Of a stretch of 64,000 nt of DNA, positions 25,414 through 33,224 are shown piece after piece. The notes beneath the pieces are model-generated. The model was not told the DNA's origin, made no database searches, and saw only the letters and a program-made list of their open reading frames with translations. The stretch comes from an uncultured Chryseobacterium sp. (lineage in GTDB: Bacteria > Bacteroidota > Bacteroidia > Flavobacteriales > Weeksellaceae): assembly GCA_913778085.1 (NCBI GenBank), contig CAJYXJ010000021.1, positions 1-64,000 on the forward strand. The letters are read 5' to 3'. Positions within the stretch are counted from its first letter, which is position 1. Every line of letters begins with the position of its first letter. A program made the translations under genes and the position numbers.

Positions 25414-27333
25414 ATGAAAAAAACAGGAATAGCCATATTGGCTCTGATTATACTGGAAGGTTGTAAAACCAAAACAGCTTCGGATCAGAATAAAGAAGAA
25501 CGGAAATTTGATATTAAAAAAGATAAAGACCAGGACGGCGTTAGAAACAGACGCGATAAATGCCCGGAAGTTGTGGGACCGGTGGAAAACAGAGGCTGTC
25601 CATGGCCGGATGCGGATGTGGACGGCATTCCCGATAAGGACGATCCGTGTAAGAATGTTCCCGGACCTATACAAAACAATGGCTGTCCGTTTCCGGATTC
25701 GGATGGCGACGGAACAAATGACGATGACGACGCCTGCCCGACTGTAGCCGGACCTGCGGAAAACAACGGCTGCCCATGGCCGGATACCGATGGCGACGGA
25801 ATCCTCGATAAAGATGATGCCTGCCCAACCGTTCCCGGACTGCCGGAATACAATGGATGCCCGAAACCGAAAGCGGCTGTGGCTGCGGAAATTTCTTATT
25901 CGCCTGAAAGATCTTCCTCCAAACTGGCATCTAAAGTTTCAGGTGTAAAAATTGCCAGGTCCAAAACCAAAGACAAAAAAGTTAAAATAGCTGAAGATTT
26001 TCCGGAAGCAGGACAACTGACTGCCGGGGAAGTAAATGATTTCTTTAAGTGGAATTATTGGGAGGATATGGCCGCTCCTGTTTTGTCGGAATACAAAAAT
26101 CAGTGGAAGATCTTTCCTGATAAAAGAGTTTCTGTACAACTCGTCAATAAAAACGCGAAACCGGTTATCGGAAAAAAAATCAAGCTTCTGAATGAGCAAA
26201 AAAAAGTTATTTGGCAAGCGGTTTCAGATAATAAGGGAAATGCTGAGTTATGGATCAATACCCGGACAGATCATAGATTTTTATCCGGAAAATATTCAAT
26301 TGCAGATGATAAGGGGAGAATACTGTCAGACAAAGTAAAATTATTTAAAAACGGGCAAAATATTATTTCCCTCGATGCGCCATGCCTTACAAAAAGAAAT
26401 CTGGATCTTGCCTTTGTGGTAGATGCAACGGGATCTATGGGAGACGAAATATCCTATCTTCAGGCCGAATTGCTGGATGTACTTAAAAAAGTGGAAAAGA
26501 AACTTCAGAGTACCACAGATGTACGGTACGCTTCCGTATTTTACAGAGATCAGGGTGACGAATATGTAACCAGGGAATTTAATTTTACGGACAAAGCTGA
26601 AAACCTGATCAACTTTATTAAAAAACAGGAGGCCGGTGGTGGCGGAGATACACCGGAAGCAGTGGTGGAAGCTCTGGATTCTTCCATTGAAAAACTGAGT
26701 TGGAGCAAAGGTAATTCCACTAAAATTATGTTTTTGGTCCTGGATGCTCCTCCGCACTATTCACAGGAAAACATTGACAAGATATATGAAAAAATAAAGC
26801 TTGCGGCTGAAAAGGGGATCACTATTATTCCGCTGGCAGCCAGTGATACCGATAAGGAAACGGAATACATTATGAGAACTTTTGCACTCCTTACGAACGG
26901 AACCTATACTTTTCTAACGAATCACAGCGGAATAGGCAACAACCATATAGAACCCACCACAGATTCTTATGAGGTTGAAAAATTAAATGAGCTTTTATTG
27001 AGGCTTATTTTGCAACGCTCAACCATTCCATCCTGCCAATCTACTTCCAAGAACGAATACATCAATAAGAAAATTGAAACTGAACTTGAAAATGAAGAAC
27101 ATCCTAAGATAAAAATCTACCCGAATCCTACAAAAGGTCTGCTCAATATTCAATCCAACAAAGCTATTGATGAATTGTATCTCTATGATTTCAGCGGAAA
27201 AATTCTAATCAGAAAAGAGAAATTACCGAAGGGAACAAGTACTATCGATATTACTTCTTATCCCCAAAGTGTATATTTAATGCGATGCAGATATGGCAAG
27301 CAATGGGATACATTTAAAATTATTAAAAATTAA
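25414..27333 (+). CDS. Calcium-binding (TSP type 3) / vWA lipoprotein with type IX sorting domain
   Basis: A 639-residue cell-surface protein. The N-terminus [20 protein letters not shown] looks like a lipoprotein signal with Cys17. Residues of about 33-150 hold four thrombospondin type 3 repeats, each with DxDxDG-type calcium sites ([36 protein letters not shown]) and a Cys pair with NGCP. A linker follows, then a von Willebrand A domain whose MIDAS is DATGSMGDE near residue 337. Residues of about 565-639 start [15 protein letters not shown] and end [19 protein letters not shown], a type A sorting domain of the type IX secretion system. It is likely to act in adhesion or surface interaction. 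The sigma operon upstream may control it. Confidence 0.85.
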
Positions 27334-27383
27334 GTTAGGTGGAGTGGGCATTCTCAGGAGTGCCTGCTTTTTTATTAAATTAA

Positions 27384-27403
27384 TTTTCAAAAATTATTGA
27401 AAA
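27384..27403. promoter_or_regulatory. Candidate GbsR-type operator 1 (TTTTCAA-N6-TTGAAAA)
   Basis: Perfect 7-bp inverted repeat with a 6-nt centre (AAATTA). It overlaps the -33 TTG of the promoter of the regulator gene. The same palindrome recurs at 28041-28058 and 28489-28506 in front of the next two genes. Confidence 0.7.
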
Positions 27404-27426
27404 TTCAAAAAATATTATTACATTTG
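27397..27426 (+). promoter_or_regulatory. Promoter of the regulator gene (TTG-N19-TACATTTG)
   Basis: TTG at 27397-27399 lies inside the palindrome and TACATTTG at 27419-27426 matches the -7 consensus, 27 bp before the ATG. Binding at the palindrome would block this promoter, suggesting autoregulation. Confidence 0.7.
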
Positions 27427-27453
27427 TCATAAGAAACTGAAATAATTAAAACA

Positions 27454-27957
27454 ATGACACTTTCGGAAGCTAAAGAAAAATACATCCAGACCTGGGGAAC
27501 GTTTGCCACCAATTGGGGGATCAACCGGACAATGGCACAGGTTCATGCTTTGCTGATCGCGAGTGAAAAGCCGCTTTCTACCGATGAGGTAATGCAACAG
27601 CTGGAAATTTCCAGGGGGAATGCCAATATGAATCTCAGGGCGCTGATGGACTGGGGAATCGTAAAAAAAGAATTCGTGAAAGGTGACCGTAAGGAATATT
27701 TCGTTGCCGAAAAAGACGTCTGGTTCCTGTTTAAGCAGATTACCAAAGAACGCAGGAAAAGGGAAATAGAACCGGTGATTTCCTTTCTGGAAGAGCTGAA
27801 GGATATTGAAGATAAGGATACGGAAGGTGCCAAAGAGTTTATTAAGCTGATGAACGATTTCAGTTCGGTGACGGGAAAAATAAACAACATTATGGATCTT
27901 GCAATCAAAAGTGACGACCACTGGCTGGTAGGGAAGATTACCAACCTGTTGAAATAG
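27454..27957 (+). CDS. GbsR/MarR-family winged-helix transcriptional regulator
   Basis: A 167-residue regulator of the GbsR branch of the MarR superfamily (COG1510 type). The DNA-binding domain includes GINRTMAQVHALLIASEKPL, TDEVMQQLEISRGNANMNLR and the wing DWGIVKKEFVKGDRKEYFVA. The C-terminal half is helical and would dimerise. It heads the cluster up to 33.2 kb; identical palindromes overlap its own promoter and precede the next two genes. The effector is unknown. An A-rich hairpin near 28010 may partly terminate transcription before the next gene. Confidence 0.88.
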   Translation: MTLSEAKEKYIQTWGTFATNWGINRTMAQVHALLIASEKPLSTDEVMQQLEISRGNANMNLRALMDWGIVKKEFVKGDRKEYFVAEKDVWFLFKQITKERRKREIEPVISFLEELKDIEDKDTEGAKEFIKLMNDFSSVTGKINNIMDLAIKSDDHWLVGKITNLLK

Positions 27958-28040
27958 GAGGCACCTGCAAAACTTTGACAGAGATTTTAACTTTGATAAA
28001 GTGTAAACAAAGGCAAAAGCCTTTTTTATTTAAGTCAAAC

Positions 28041-28058
28041 TTTCAAAAATTATTGAAA
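28041..28058. promoter_or_regulatory. Candidate GbsR-type operator 2 (TTTCAA-N6-TTGAAA)
   Basis: TTTCAA-AAATTA-TTGAAA, identical to the core and centre of the palindrome in front of the regulator gene, 30 bp upstream of the first small membrane protein gene. Confidence 0.7.
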
Positions 28059-28088
28059 ATATAATAACAATAATAAAAACTTTAAAAC

Positions 28089-28457
28089 ATGAAAATTAAT
28101 ATTTTAAGAGGAGAAGTGATCATTCAGACAATAATCAGTCTTATATTCTTTTGGTATGCTGTTGCCCATTACTTCCAGAAAACACCGGGATCGGAATTTT
28201 TTATTGCTCTTTTCTATATTGGTGTTTCAAACCTTATCGGTTTTTTGTTAAGGGTTGCAGTAAGCAGAAGCAGGTTTCACCGGTATTATTTTTACGGTGT
28301 TATTCTCTTCTTTACCATCCTGTATTGTATGGCAATACAATTCGGTAATTCCAAAATGGATTATATAGTAAACTTTATGGGAATCGGAGGGGTACTTTTT
28401 AACCTATACTATCTCATATATGGTTTTTATATCATTAAGACAAACCAACCAAAATAA
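28089..28457 (+). CDS. Small four-helix membrane protein of unknown function
   Basis: I do not recognise a family for this 122-residue protein. Hydrophobicity suggests four membrane helices (about 8-27, 37-55, 66-85 and 93-115), with short charged loops such as VSRSRFHRYYF. It is preceded at 30 bp by the TTTCAA-N6-TTGAAA palindrome and lies in the same direction as the regulator and the following membrane-protein genes, so it is probably a target of the regulator. Confidence 0.7.
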   Translation: MKINILRGEVIIQTIISLIFFWYAVAHYFQKTPGSEFFIALFYIGVSNLIGFLLRVAVSRSRFHRYYFYGVILFFTILYCMAIQFGNSKMDYIVNFMGIGGVLFNLYYLIYGFYIIKTNQPK

Positions 28458-28488
28458 AAAACAGCAGTAAAATTTTTTTCATATTAAA

Positions 28489-28506
28489 TTTCAAAAAATA
28501 TTGAAA
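28489..28506. promoter_or_regulatory. Candidate GbsR-type operator 3 (TTTCAA-N6-TTGAAA)
   Basis: TTTCAA-AAAATA-TTGAAA, with the same arms and spacing as the two upstream copies, 16 bp before the start of the next membrane-protein gene. No other copy was noticed in the window. Confidence 0.7.
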
Positions 28507-28522
28507 GTATAATATTTATAAA

Positions 28523-28867
28523 ATGTTTAATATCGTCTCATACCTGCTTTTTCTTGCCGTCAGTTCGTATATAACGATTGACGTGGGACGAAGATGTTAT
28601 ATTGCAGGCAAGTATTATCTGGAATATCTGATTCATGACTCTCAGCTTTGTCTTACGATTAACAGGATACTTCTTGGCTGCTATTATCTGATCAATCTGG
28701 GTTATATCGCGATTAACCTTACCCACTGGGACAAAGTTAATACTGTGGAAGAAATTGTTACGGTCACTTCCGTACGAATCGGATATATTACATTGATCCT
28801 TTGTTTGTTACACTTTATGAACATTTCAGCACTATACTTATTAAGAAAAAATTTAACTATAAGATAA
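28523..28867 (+). CDS. Small membrane protein, paralogue of the next gene
   Basis: A 114-residue protein with three membrane helices (about 3-20, 46-66 and 87-107). The part from residue 44 on (INRILLGCYYLINLGYIAIN, TVEEIVTV, YLLRK) aligns with the downstream 133-residue protein (TNSLFKIGFYLLNLGFALCI, TVERLVVA, FLKGRK) without large gaps. The function is unknown. Its gene follows the third palindrome by 16 bp and is 7 bp from its paralogue, so the two should be co-expressed and might form a heteromer. Confidence 0.7.
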   Translation: MFNIVSYLLFLAVSSYITIDVGRRCYIAGKYYLEYLIHDSQLCLTINRILLGCYYLINLGYIAINLTHWDKVNTVEEIVTVTSVRIGYITLILCLLHFMNISALYLLRKNLTIR

Positions 28868-28874
28868 TAAAACT

Positions 28875-29276
28875 ATGAATGCAGCAGTACTTACCACCGA
28901 CTACAATTTTGAGGCATACATGATCTATCTGCCAATCGTGATCTTGCTAACGGTATTGGTTTCCCAATTTCTCTTCAAAAATTCCAAAACTTTTATGATC
29001 GATATTTTTCATCAGAAAGAAGACATTGCGATGGCGACCAATTCCTTATTCAAGATCGGTTTTTATCTCTTAAATCTGGGTTTTGCCCTTTGCATTATTG
29101 AGTTTTTCCGGATCGAAACCGTAGAAAGGCTGGTCGTCGCTTTGAGCGAAAAAATCGGTGGATTTTCCATTTATCTCGGGGTCATGATGCTTCTGAACTT
29201 ATTGCTTTTCCTGAAAGGCCGTAAACACGCCATGAATAAAAATAAAATCATTAAAAATGAAAACACTGCTGTTTAA
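28875..29276 (+). CDS. Small membrane protein, paralogue of the preceding gene
   Basis: A 133-residue protein with three membrane helices (about 16-34, 57-75 and 92-113) and a lysine-rich tail. It shares the pattern FYLLNLGFAL ... RIETVERLVVALSEKIGG ... MMLLNLLLFLKGRK with its upstream neighbour, indicating tandem duplication and divergence. No known family recognised. The 3' end overlaps a 28-codon open frame in another frame. Confidence 0.7.
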   Translation: MNAAVLTTDYNFEAYMIYLPIVILLTVLVSQFLFKNSKTFMIDIFHQKEDIAMATNSLFKIGFYLLNLGFALCIIEFFRIETVERLVVALSEKIGGFSIYLGVMMLLNLLLFLKGRKHAMNKNKIIKNENTAV

Positions 29277-29355: not shown

Positions 29356-30234
29356 ATGAAAACCCTTCAAAACCATACCCTTATTTATGACAGCGAATGC
29401 CCGATGTGCAACCTGTATTCCAAAGGCTTCATTGCGTCCGGAATGCTGGATCAGCACGGTAGGAAAGCTTTTACGGAATTAAATGTTGCAACAAAAAACC
29501 GGATTGATGTTAACCGTGCAAAAAACGAAATCGCTCTGGTTGATCATGCTAAAAACAAAGTGATCTATGGCCTGGACAGCCTGCTGCTGATTATCGGCAA
29601 CGCTTTTCCAATGCTGGAAAAGACAGCGCGGATCCAACCTCTGTATTGGTTTTTAAAAAAACTCTATTCTTTTGTTTCATACAACCGGAAACAGATCATT
29701 CCTTCCAAAAACAATCACAAAGCAGAGGCCTGTAACCCTGATTTCAATCTCAAATACAGAATGGCTTACCTCGTTTTTATTGCCGTTTTTTCAGCATATG
29801 TTTTAAGCTTGTTTTCTGAAAAATTGGGATTGAGCCGGAACTTCTTCAGGGAACTCGGCATCTGCACCGGACAGATCTTTTGGCAGACCGTTTTCCTGAA
29901 AGTTTATCTGAAAGAAAAGCTTTGGGATTACCTCGGAAATATGATGACCGTCTCCCTTATCGGAACCCTCCTGCTGATTACCGGACTTTTCCTGGACCTG
30001 AATGCTATTGCCGCATTCATCTATTTCGGAACGGTGGTAGCCATTATGTTTCTGGAACATATCAGGAGATGCCGGATTTTAGGACTGAATCTGCTGCCGA
30101 CGCTTTCCTGGACGCTTTTCAGGATGACCGTGCTGGCTTTCTTACTCTGTACTCATCTTTTAAAAACGAATAATGAACCCTACCGAACTGATCAAAGAAA
30201 TACCATGGAAAGATCTGAAATCTCTTTCCGTTAA
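29356..30234 (+). CDS. DCC-family (DUF393) thiol-disulfide protein with membrane domain
   Basis: A 292-residue two-part protein. The N-terminal part is a thioredoxin-like DCC domain with the DxxCxxC motif YDSECPMCNLYSKGF near residue 12 and the late family motif YGLDSLLLIIG. The C-terminal half (about 130-275) has about four to five membrane helices and no recognised catalytic motif. DCC proteins are predicted oxidoreductases with unknown partners. It overlaps the next gene by 62 bp, an unusually long overlap that implies tight coupling, or that the last 20 residues are not essential. Confidence 0.82.
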   Translation: MKTLQNHTLIYDSECPMCNLYSKGFIASGMLDQHGRKAFTELNVATKNRIDVNRAKNEIALVDHAKNKVIYGLDSLLLIIGNAFPMLEKTARIQPLYWFLKKLYSFVSYNRKQIIPSKNNHKAEACNPDFNLKYRMAYLVFIAVFSAYVLSLFSEKLGLSRNFFRELGICTGQIFWQTVFLKVYLKEKLWDYLGNMMTVSLIGTLLLITGLFLDLNAIAAFIYFGTVVAIMFLEHIRRCRILGLNLLPTLSWTLFRMTVLAFLLCTHLLKTNNEPYRTDQRNTMERSEISFR

Positions 30235-30955
30235 AGAAATGCTGATTGAAAATAACATCAGCCTGCCATGGCTTTTTATCTCATTAATTTTTGCTTACCA
30301 TGGCTATTACAGGGCAGCCCTGCCGTTTTCTGGCTTTTATTTCCTAACGGCGCTGAGACAGGTGCATAACGGTTTTCACAATGCCTTGGGAACGGGAAAA
30401 TTTCTGACCTGGCTTTCGATGTACCTGAACAGTATTCTGATGATGACTTCCGTGCATGCCGTGAAATTCAATCACCTCCGACATCACAAATACTGTCTGT
30501 CCGAAGAAGATTATGAAGGGAAAGCTGCCTCCATGACATGGTACAAAGCGATACTCTATGGTCCCAAACACCTGTTAATGATTCATTGGATTACTTTTAA
30601 AAAAGGCAATAAAAAATATAGGAAGAATATGTTTCTTCAGTTGTTTTCCGTCTTTATTTTTGTTGGTATGGCTTTCTATTTTCAGCTGAATATTTTGATA
30701 TACCATATCCTGGCGATGCTGGCCGGCGAACTTTTAATGGCTTTTTTTGCAGTCTGGACGGTACATCACGGTACTCACGACAATCCTCATTTCGCCAGAA
30801 CACAAAGGGGTTTCTGGAAAAATAAGCTCACCTTCAGCATGTTTTATCATATGGAGCATCACCTTTTTCCTGCTGTTCCCACTATAAAACTGCCGGAACT
30901 CGCTGAAAGGATTGACAAAGTACTGCCGGATCTGGATAAGAAGCAGGCCTTTTAA
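30173..30955 (+). CDS. Membrane fatty-acid desaturase family protein
   Basis: Membrane di-iron desaturase (PF00487 type) of 260 residues, expected to introduce a double bond in, or hydroxylate, an acyl chain or other lipid. Histidine boxes are HNGFHNALG near residue 66, FNHLRHHKYC near 101, TVHHGTHDNPHF near 200 and YHMEHHLFPAVPT near 225, with hydrophobic helices between. The ATG at 30173 lies inside the preceding gene; the next in-frame ATG (MLIENN) would remove 22 residues that fit the family. It is a central enzymatic member of the cluster. Confidence 0.87.
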   Translation: MNPTELIKEIPWKDLKSLSVKEMLIENNISLPWLFISLIFAYHGYYRAALPFSGFYFLTALRQVHNGFHNALGTGKFLTWLSMYLNSILMMTSVHAVKFNHLRHHKYCLSEEDYEGKAASMTWYKAILYGPKHLLMIHWITFKKGNKKYRKNMFLQLFSVFIFVGMAFYFQLNILIYHILAMLAGELLMAFFAVWTVHHGTHDNPHFARTQRGFWKNKLTFSMFYHMEHHLFPAVPTIKLPELAERIDKVLPDLDKKQAF

Positions 30956-30991
30956 TTCATAAAATTGTCCAAAATATCTCTTCTAAATAAA

Positions 30992-31447
30992 ATGTCCGTT
31001 ATTATTTTACATACCTGCATCCAAGCCGGGATCCCTAAAGTTTTCGATCTGGCCCGGGACATCGATCTTCATCAGAGATCCACTTTCCGGACTGGTGAAA
31101 AAGCCGTTGCCGGAAGAATGTCAGGACTGATCGAATTTGGCGAAACCGTTACCTGGAAAGCCAGGCACCTCGGTGTAATGCAGACTTTAACCACAAAAAT
31201 CGTTACCATGCAGAAACCCTATCATTTCACGGACATTATGCTGAAAGGCACATTCCGGTCCATGAAGCACCAGCATCTTTTCAGGCAGGAAGATCGGTAC
31301 ACCGTTATGACCGATATTTTCGAGTTTGAATCCCCGTTCGGGATCATCGGTAAAATATTCAATGCCATATTCCTTAGAAATTATATGAAGCAATTCCTTT
31401 TGGAAAGAAACCGGATGATTAAAAGTGCCGCCGAAGCAGACTTTTAG
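30992..31447 (+). CDS. SRPBCC (START-like) family protein
   Basis: A 151-residue protein of the SRPBCC fold, which encloses a hydrophobic ligand such as a lipid. Family features are IQAGIPKVFDLARDIDLHQR at the N-terminus, GETVTWKARHLGVMQTLTTK in the middle, FRSMKHQHLF, and the closing long helix NYMKQFLLERNRMIKSAAE. The first ATG in frame is at 30992; a TTG at 30965 would add nine residues and is less likely. The gene follows the desaturase by 36 bp. In this family it resembles the small proteins annotated near DUF2071 and TIGR01777 proteins. Confidence 0.8.
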   Translation: MSVIILHTCIQAGIPKVFDLARDIDLHQRSTFRTGEKAVAGRMSGLIEFGETVTWKARHLGVMQTLTTKIVTMQKPYHFTDIMLKGTFRSMKHQHLFRQEDRYTVMTDIFEFESPFGIIGKIFNAIFLRNYMKQFLLERNRMIKSAAEADF

Positions 31448-31485: not shown

Positions 31486-32193
31486 ATGAATTTCCTAACA
31501 GCAGAATGGCGGAAACTGGCCATCATCAATTACGAAATAAATCCGGAACTTCTCTTACCTTATCTTCCGGCAGGTACGGAACTGGATTTTTATCATGGCA
31601 AATGCTACATCAGCCTTGTCGGATTTATGTTCTTAAACACAAAATTATTAGGATTTCCGATCCCTTTTCACCGGAACTTTGAAGAAGTCAATTTGAGATT
31701 TTATGTAAAGAAAAAAGAAGGAGATCAATGGAAAAGAGGCGTGGTTTTTGTGAAAGAGATCGTTCCGAAACCTGCGCTGAGCCTGGTTGCCAATTCAGTG
31801 TATCAGGAACATTACGAGACGATGCCCATGCAAAACACCATTCATCATACAGATAATGAGGTATTGATCCGGTATTCTTGGAAAGACAGAACATGGCATT
31901 CCATTACCGTAACTGCCGGAAATAACCCCTTGCCCATGAAACGCGATTCTGAATTTGAGTTTATTACCGAACACTATTTCGGATTTACAAAAAAAAAAGA
32001 TAAAACGGCAGAATATGAAGTCTGCCATCCGAAATGGGAATACTACGAAGTAAAAAATCATGATATTAAAGTAGATTTTGAAAGCCTCTACGGAAGCGGT
32101 TTTAGATACCTGAATCTTCAGCGGCCTATCTCTGTAATGCTGGCGGAAGGTTCTAAAATACGGGTGAAAACGAAGAAATATTTACAGAGATAA
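31486..32193 (+). CDS. DUF2071 (YqjF) family protein
   Basis: A 235-residue protein with the DUF2071 signature: FLTAEWRKLAIINYEINPEL, LLPYLPAGTELDFYHGKCYI, SLVGFMFLNTK and EEVNLRFYVK. The fold resembles acetoacetate decarboxylase-like proteins but the family has no assigned function. There is no signal peptide or membrane helix. It is 38 bp after the SRPBCC gene in the same direction. Confidence 0.87.
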   Translation: MNFLTAEWRKLAIINYEINPELLLPYLPAGTELDFYHGKCYISLVGFMFLNTKLLGFPIPFHRNFEEVNLRFYVKKKEGDQWKRGVVFVKEIVPKPALSLVANSVYQEHYETMPMQNTIHHTDNEVLIRYSWKDRTWHSITVTAGNNPLPMKRDSEFEFITEHYFGFTKKKDKTAEYEVCHPKWEYYEVKNHDIKVDFESLYGSGFRYLNLQRPISVMLAEGSKIRVKTKKYLQR

Positions 32194-32330: not shown

Positions 32331-33224
32331 ATGACAATCAGTATCGCAGCCGGAACCGGCTTTCTCGGAAAAAACCTCGAACAATATTTTACGGAAAAAG
32401 GCCATCAGATCTACATTTTAACCCGTAGCCCAAAACGCAGAAACGAGTTTCTCTGGGATGCCAGAACATTAGGCGAATGGAAAAACCTTCTGGAAACTAC
32501 CGATGTTCTCATCAACCTCGCTGGAAAGTCCGTAGATTGCCGATACACCGAAAAAAGCAGGAATGAAATTTATCATTCAAGAATAGACAGTACCAGAGTG
32601 CTTCAGGAAGCGGTCGATCAATGCAATCATAAACCAAAAATCTGGCTGAATGCCAGTTCGGCAACCATCTACATCCATTCCGAAACCCACCTCAATACCG
32701 AAGAAGGCGGCATCATCGGCGACGACTTCTCCATGAACATCTGCAAAAGCTGGGAACAGGAGTTTTTCCGAACAAATACGGACAATGTGAGAAAAGTTGC
32801 CTTGCGGACATCCATTGTGCTGGGGAACAACGGCGGCGCTTTCCCCAAACTGAAAACCCTTACGAAATTCGGGCTGGGCGGGAAACAGGGCAGGGGAAAC
32901 CAAAAGGTGAGCTGGATCCACATTCATGATTTCTGCAAAGCGGTGGAATTCGTAATAGCGCATAAGAATATAGCCGGCCCGGTTAATGTAACTGCTCCGG
33001 ATCCGCTTTCCAATGAAAGATTCATGAAAGAATTGAGACGGAAAATGAAAATCCCCTTCGGTTTAAACGCTCCGGTCTGGCAGCTGGAAATCGCTTCTGT
33101 AGTCTTAAGGACTGAAACGGAACTTCTCCTAAAGAGCCGGAATGTCTCTCCGGATAAATTATTGAAAAATGGTTTTGAATTTACTTATCCCAAACTTGAA
33201 ACCGCACTGAAAGATCTAGTTTGA
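32331..33224 (+). CDS. TIGR01777 family epimerase-like protein (SDR39U1 type)
   Basis: A 297-residue extended-SDR protein of the TIGR01777 family. Rossmann motif GTGFLGKNL near the N-terminus, NLAGKSVDCRYTEK, the IVLGNNGGAFPKL segment, SWIHIHDFCKAVEFV and GPVNVTAPDPLSN are typical. The substrate is unknown. The usual Tyr-x-x-x-Lys is not obvious, as in many members. It ends the cluster that begins with the GbsR-type regulator, but a 137-bp gap with repeat sequence separates it from DUF2071, so it may have its own promoter. Confidence 0.87.
   Translation: MTISIAAGTGFLGKNLEQYFTEKGHQIYILTRSPKRRNEFLWDARTLGEWKNLLETTDVLINLAGKSVDCRYTEKSRNEIYHSRIDSTRVLQEAVDQCNHKPKIWLNASSATIYIHSETHLNTEEGGIIGDDFSMNICKSWEQEFFRTNTDNVRKVALRTSIVLGNNGGAFPKLKTLTKFGLGGKQGRGNQKVSWIHIHDFCKAVEFVIAHKNIAGPVNVTAPDPLSNERFMKELRRKMKIPFGLNAPVWQLEIASVVLRTETELLLKSRNVSPDKLLKNGFEFTYPKLETALKDLV

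Follow-up and report, generated by a model that had tools for sequence, protein, structure and literature searches.

Three copies of a palindrome in the 64,000-nt window analysed here are predicted to be operators of a GbsR-type regulator of 167 amino acids, which would repress its own gene from operator 1 and control the genes that follow; judged from sequence, we give this reading a probability of roughly 80%. The window is the whole stretch of DNA under study and belongs to contig C21 of a 4.63-Mb genome; by the regulator gene, the closest named relatives are members of Chryseobacterium. We infer that a dimer of the regulator reads two inverted TTTCA half-sites with an A/T-rich middle of 8 bp and outer arms close to AAY and RTT. 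At operator 1, the bound dimer would cover the -33 TTG of the regulator's own promoter and block RNA polymerase, leading to autorepression; operators 2 and 3 would govern the genes behind them, which encode small membrane-like proteins, together with the DCC, desaturase, DUF2071 and TIGR01777 genes. An inducer would release the regulator from the operators.

Exact matches to TTTCAA-N6-TTGAAA are found at 27385-27402, 28041-28058 and 28489-28506 and nowhere else in the window, in agreement with the initial annotation, which had described three palindromes at these sites and no further copy in 64 kb. The first copy gains one extra pair and thus extends to 27384-27403. With up to two mismatches, the window contains 24 matches against 17.95 expected, a number reached in 9 of 100 shuffles, so that only the exact copies stand out. 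The complete genome (4,628,554 bases) holds five exact copies, three of them inside 1.1 kb, a length for which the genome-wide density predicts about 0.001 copies. Because the reversed-pattern control also occurs five times genome-wide, it is the clustering that is raised, but not the genome-wide number of exact copies; the remaining two (C20:72034 and C54:16794) both lie within ORFs. The core TTTCA-N8-TGAAA, which is its own reverse complement, is present in 29 copies genome-wide, including the three of the window, versus 15 for the control, and on the plus strand of the window it occurs only at those three sites. As unstranded features, the predicted operators read AAT-TTTCAAAAATTATTGAAA-ATT (operator 1, 27382..27405, core 27385-27402), TTTCAAAAATTATTGAAA (operator 2, 28041..28058) and TTTCAAAAAATATTGAAA (operator 3, 28489..28506). 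They are followed by the ATG of the regulator at 27454, that of a 122-aa ORF at 28089, and that of a 114-aa ORF at 28523, 16 nt beyond operator 3.

The palindrome is conserved at the loci of regulator homologs far beyond the genus. The regulator matches 154 stretches of the genome collection, of which the best 80 were kept as the near set (titles: Chryseobacterium and one Weeksellaceae). Together with 18 other near loci (16 from other genera of the family, one from the same genus, one from another family of the class) and 66 distant loci, whose regulators are 35-64% identical, these make up the 164 loci of the analysis. At an E-value of 1e-5, the regulator is found in 51 of 148 genomes of the family, 111 of 395 of the order and 162 of 395 of the phylum. 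A core copy lies at most 140 nt upstream of the regulator in 79/80 near-set, 18/18 other near and 63/66 distant loci, and it persists down to 35% regulator identity. The resulting 160/164 loci with a counterpart of operator 1 are the unbiased measure of conservation, since the search pattern itself fixes the core columns at 100%. When the regulators are grouped into 27 clusters at 70% identity, the core is present throughout 23 clusters and in one or more members of 25; it precedes the regulator in 13 of the 14 families of the locus set, the exception being f19 with two loci. The initial annotation is borne out here on two counts, as the palindrome is kept in orthologous promoters and is concentrated at the cluster rather than spread at random density: the 150-nt stretches ahead of the distant regulators, 9.9 kb in sum, contain 63 copies, compared with a single one in the 507 kb beyond -150..+3000, and in the near set 79 copies fall into the 12 kb before the regulator versus 15 in 873 kb elsewhere. 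Downstream of the regulator gene, within 4.5 kb, a core copy is present at 147 of the 164 loci; these copies precede whatever gene comes next, and the identity of that gene varies among loci. Four loci are without a strict upstream site and 17 without a downstream site, including L101, which ends 5 bases past the regulator. Among 16 further relatives (L252-L267, 169-214 aa), most of them from higher-GC genomes, 15 share the SRGNAN recognition region, and the core occurs in the upstream 150 nt of only two, with a third at -215; in the other 14, the operator or its place differs.

The first palindrome is embedded in the promoter of the regulator gene (27397..27426, plus strand): a -33 TTG at 27397-27399 within the right arm, as had been noted before, is followed after a spacer of 19 nt by the -7 element TACATTTG at 27419-27426. 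The elements correspond to the Bacteroidota consensus TTTG/TANNTTTG, of which the -33 motif is described as much less evident in F. johnsoniae (PMC6847099). The same geometry recurs across the loci. The base before TGAAA is T, making the -33 TTG, in 148 of the 160 operators upstream of the regulator, and the right-arm TTG is followed by TANNTTTG at 18-20 nt at 77/79, 17/18 and 44/63 sites of the near, other near and distant loci, i.e. 138/160, with a background density of strict promoters of 0.106 per kb. A protein on operator 1 would cover the -33 element, and autorepression by occlusion is therefore likely from the geometry of sites and promoter elements. The preceding gene (25414-27333) codes for a protein in which a VWA domain is combined with thrombospondin type 3 repeats and a C-terminal sorting domain for secretion; a terminator-like hairpin with a T tail (27341..27380, plus strand, pattern match only) occupies the gap between this VWA gene and the regulator promoter.

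The regulator itself (27454..27957, plus strand) is a GbsR/Mj223-like protein with a MarR fold according to sequence, predicted structure and fold match. Mj223 (1KU9) from the archaeon Methanocaldococcus jannaschii is its best match both in sequence (E 5e-21) and in fold (Foldseek rank 1, E 4.6e-9, TM 0.57 and 0.61, with a model pLDDT of 89.5); the operator of Mj223 is called unknown in PMC7396694. The Pfam models MarR_2 and TrmB hit the protein under their cut-offs, and the sole match to the regulator in its own genome is the window gene. The designation GbsR-type is thus appropriate as far as fold and sequence are concerned. The score for the choline regulator CudC (NF047500), however, is 62.3 bits, far under the equivalog cut-off of 218, for which reason we prefer the name GbsR/Mj223-like to that of a choline sensor. 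Nor do the families identified for the cluster genes include one for choline or osmoprotectants, four of the nine genes being without a Pfam or NCBIfam match; neither is a cytochrome bd operon of the CydE or CioR kind represented among the nine genes from regulator to oxidoreductase.

These genes, all on the plus strand, encode a 122-aa protein (28089..28457; membrane-like by eye, without a family match), a 114-aa protein (28523..28867) and a 133-aa protein (28875..29276), both likewise membrane-like by eye and with homologs that share one census cluster, a DCC1-like thiol-disulfide oxidoreductase (29356..30234; PF04134), a fatty acid desaturase (30173..30955; PF00487), a 160-aa ORF (30965..31447; SRPBCC-like by eye, without a family match), a DUF2071 protein (31486..32193; PF09844) and a TIGR01777-family oxidoreductase (32331..33224). 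As listed, the desaturase ORF starts within the end of the DCC ORF, with an overlap of 62 nt (30173-30234). The likely start of the 160-aa ORF is, by its orthologues, the ATG at 30992. For the 133-aa protein, whose structure model (pLDDT 57) is of too low quality for a fold search, a match to Claudin_2 at E 0.12 was dismissed as too weak; in that same family search, the 160-aa family was entered two codons inside its likely start. Across the order, the 133-aa protein is tied to the regulator: it is present in 64 of 395 genomes, and 63 of these 64 possess the regulator, versus 111 of 395 overall (Fisher 4e-41). In the 64th genome (G513), the contig end starts inside what appears by eye to be the tail of a regulator-like ORF, with a palindrome after it. 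At the 66 distant loci, the neighbours were clustered and named after the window genes that they resemble; they include TIGR01777-like oxidoreductases at 35 loci, small membrane-like proteins at 33, DCC-like proteins at 16, and DUF2071-like proteins and the 160-aa family at 11 each; a minus-strand membrane-like protein is found further down at 13 of them. From the desaturase and the membrane-like proteins, one may guess at a joint role of the module in membrane or lipid modification.

More difficult to interpret are the downstream copies, which do not have the usual layout of a sigma-A promoter whose -33 element is covered by an operator. The initial annotation had placed each palindrome ahead of one of the cluster's first three genes, which is correct, but a recognisable promoter is present at the first copy only; operator 2, for instance, is without a TANNTTTG box after it. 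None of the 174 downstream sites has TTG-N17-21-TANNTTTG in the interval -200..+90, and a relaxed form yields 7 scattered matches. TAHHTTTG is absent from all 174 sites in -20..+60, where about 6 are expected from background, and in -60..+70 it occurs at 2/174 downstream sites versus 137/160 sites before the regulator. The base that makes the -33 TTG before the regulator is replaced by C (CTGAAA) in 120/174 downstream copies, and A is the sixth base of the left arm in 146/174. The sixth base pair of TTTCAA-N6-TTGAAA, which had been included in the initial definition of the palindrome, is therefore variable, and TTTCA-N8-TGAAA remains as the invariant part. In the distant set, the first downstream copy begins a median of 19.5 nt past the regulator stop, and the next ATG follows 28-41 nt from the start of the site (20th-80th percentile). 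In the window, a terminator-like hairpin AAAGGCAAAAGCCTTT with a T tail (28009..28034, plus strand, pattern match) lies between regulator and operator 2. A T tract before the first downstream copy is found at 79/79 near-set, 17/18 other near and 24/50 distant loci, and a fold with an MFE of -4 or lower at 68/79, 11/18 and 9/50, respectively. Between the regulator stop and the hairpin there is also a lone TAACTTTG (27988-27995), which resembles a -7 box but lacks a -33 TTG; in relatives, a -7-like box is not enriched at this place. At six loci (L043, L057, L077, L084, L088 and L108), a gene of about 230 codons, lipoprotein-like by eye, directly follows the regulator without an operator of its own.

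The likeliest role of operators 2 and 3 would be to repress transcripts arriving from upstream, either as a roadblock or as second operators that reinforce operator 1. We think so because a sigma-A type -7 box is missing there, and we rank both options ahead of activation and of a different promoter type, since the family members characterised in the papers cited here are repressors. Plain read-through is called into question by the terminator-like hairpin that precedes the first downstream copy in 68/79 near-set loci; this hairpin is also among the observations that speak for a dual regulator, i.e. a protein that represses its own gene at operator 1 and acts as an activator of the downstream genes at operators 2 and 3, which would then need no good -33 or -7 element. 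The absence of both promoter patterns from the 174 downstream sites and the C in place of the -33 TTG point in the same direction, as does the single orientation that the asymmetric form keeps downstream (right-arm C in 120/174 copies, left-arm G in 5/174); furthermore, 26 of the 164 loci possess two or more downstream copies. On the other hand, the short distance to the next ATG in the distant set would hardly accommodate a promoter downstream of the site, and activators normally still require a -7 box. The GbsR-type proteins characterised in the cited papers, namely CydE, CioR, and GbsR and OpcR of Bacillus, are repressors, and on the whole we regard such a dual regulator as rather doubtful.

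Less probable still is an overlap of the downstream copies with promoters that an alternative sigma factor recognises or that carry a TATAAT-like -10, and which the regulator would repress. A precedent is Flavobacterium psychrophilum, for which promoter motifs besides TAnnTTTG have been described (PMC9723704). Moreover, TATAAT stands straight after the palindrome (offset 19) in 45 of 102 near-set downstream copies, copies 2 and 3 of the window being of that kind. In this position it resembles a -10 element of a type that Bacteroidota promoters do not usually have. However, none of the 72 downstream copies beyond the near set has TATAAT at offset 19 (11 have it elsewhere nearby), and 65/160 operators before the regulator have it in their surroundings as well. 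The hexamer may thus reflect A/T richness. The motifs TAnnTTGY (4/174), GG-N10-GC (4/174) and CGT (35/174) are all at or under background at the downstream sites, and we consider an unlike promoter at these places unlikely; repression of transcripts from upstream remains the reading that we prefer for operators 2 and 3.

The assignment of the palindrome to the GbsR-type protein is based most strongly on CydE from Alishewanella sp. WH16-1: in DNase footprinting, this GbsR-type repressor of cytochrome bd protects TATTTCAGAAATTTCTGAAAGTTCA (PMC6096048). The protected sequence has the core around an A/T-rich middle as well as the RTT arm, and its right arm carries the sixth-base C that prevails in the downstream copies. 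The outer columns are conserved in the operators before the regulator: at the 81 sites beyond the near set, A occupies position -2 in 90% and C or T position -1 in 89%, and the right arm is followed by G or A, T and T in 94, 96 and 93%. In the downstream copies (n=72), the same columns are weaker, with 79, 65, 81, 100 and 67%. The likeness is one of operator sequences: the footprint reads TTTCA-N8-TGAAA-GTT, and the core is found in 160/164 loci, yet it does not define the family, as the operators of Bacillus differ. The cydEAB genes also resemble the present cluster in that the regulator gene is co-transcribed with its targets, but CydE controls cytochrome bd and is released by sulfate, and its second footprint, GGGATGCGCATATGCAAAT, is without the motif (PMC6096048). 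GbsR and OpcR of Bacillus subtilis are MarR-type repressors as well, OpcR covering the -35 region and GbsR acting as a roadblock downstream of the start; their targets, however, are choline and osmostress genes, and the two operators, as PMC7396694 describes them, are unlike one another in both sequence and spacer. Since the GbsR half-sites are 4 bp apart (PMC7396694), versus N8 here, the operator is not uniform across the GbsR family. CioR of Chromobacterium violaceum, a GbsR-type repressor of its own operon, differs by its cytochrome bd target, and the main text of PMC11837568 contains neither the word footprint nor palindrom. TTTCA-N8-TGAAA may thus be an old operator of one GbsR branch, common to Bacteroidota and a gammaproteobacterium.

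That a different conserved regulator binds the palindromes, which would then adjoin the GbsR-type gene by accident, appears very unlikely against this background. It would explain why A/T-cored copies are also present in genomes without the gene, with a mean of 2.59 in 98 such genomes versus 4.38 in 50 regulator genomes (Mann-Whitney p 4e-7), a difference that fits two extra sites, although genome size differs too and counts alone are no proof of a regulon. (Of the 148 genomes counted, G093, whose weak match has an internal stop, was put among the regulator-free ones.) The position of the palindrome is, however, tied to the GbsR-type gene in many families though the neighbours change, and a GbsR-type relative, CydE, protects this very motif. 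In addition, a close target orthologue is missing as well in 20 chosen regulator-free genomes, where the best TIGR01777 match is just 28-33% identical; a core copy occurs at only one of these 20 loci (about 3.9 kb each), with a G/C-rich middle.

It is barely plausible that the downstream copies act as mRNA hairpins and not as DNA operators. With transcription continuing past the regulator gene, they would indeed be part of the mRNA; yet the sixth pair is spoiled by the right-arm C and the left-arm A, and operator 1, with the same motif, lies upstream of the expected transcript start. Since the search was defined by the five outer pairs, their invariance among the counted sites follows by construction. 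Chance, with the palindrome as a mere by-product of -33 elements and A/T richness, is virtually negligible, for although the genome is A/T-rich and its exact copies equal those of the reversed-pattern control, the left arm TTTCA is conserved outside the known promoter consensus, the downstream copies are without a -33/-7 promoter, and the distant loci concentrate the sites before the regulator.

Outside the window, 9 of the 26 further core copies of the genome were read in context, together with one near match (C24:22149). Of these ten sites, C13:211401 overlaps the start of an ORF, two (C63:55500 and C78:59208) are intergenic, and the other seven fall within ORFs. As a possible regulon site we considered C78:59208, before an acyl-CoA carboxylase subunit, but rejected it, because the strict core is present in only 7 of 30 genus genomes, its own included, and another element is conserved instead. 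This element before the acyl-CoA carboxylase-like gene (by eye; L281:1950-2110, L289-L318) consists of GTTAAA-N-ATTTCAC/T...AACCAA followed by a ATTAAACA-like inverted repeat; it looks conserved in the 30 genomes and may be the site of another regulator.

A survey of GbsR-type regulators from 2018 states for the gene neighbourhoods of Bacteroidetes that "no consistent picture emerges" (PMC6207618), and no paper on the present module was found in the open-access literature on GbsR in Bacteroidota, TIGR01777/DUF2071 and MarR in Flavobacterium, subscription journals being mostly outside this search. The operator supplies such a picture for Bacteroidetes, namely a local module that apparently regulates itself and in which a set of genes recurs, and its shared sequence makes tests of binding and inducer straightforward. 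The module is a widely conserved, probably self-regulated GbsR/MarR operon and as such of a previously known kind; its interesting point is the role of the downstream operators. We tentatively suggest, as a possibility well short of an even chance, that in the Bacteroidota lineages sampled the regulator uses one operator in two ways, repressing itself via the -33 element and driving or gating small cassettes, each from an operator of its own that lacks a sigma-A promoter and immediately precedes the start codon. If true, this two-way use would be an unusual, operator-marked layout of cassettes in a family so far known for repressors.
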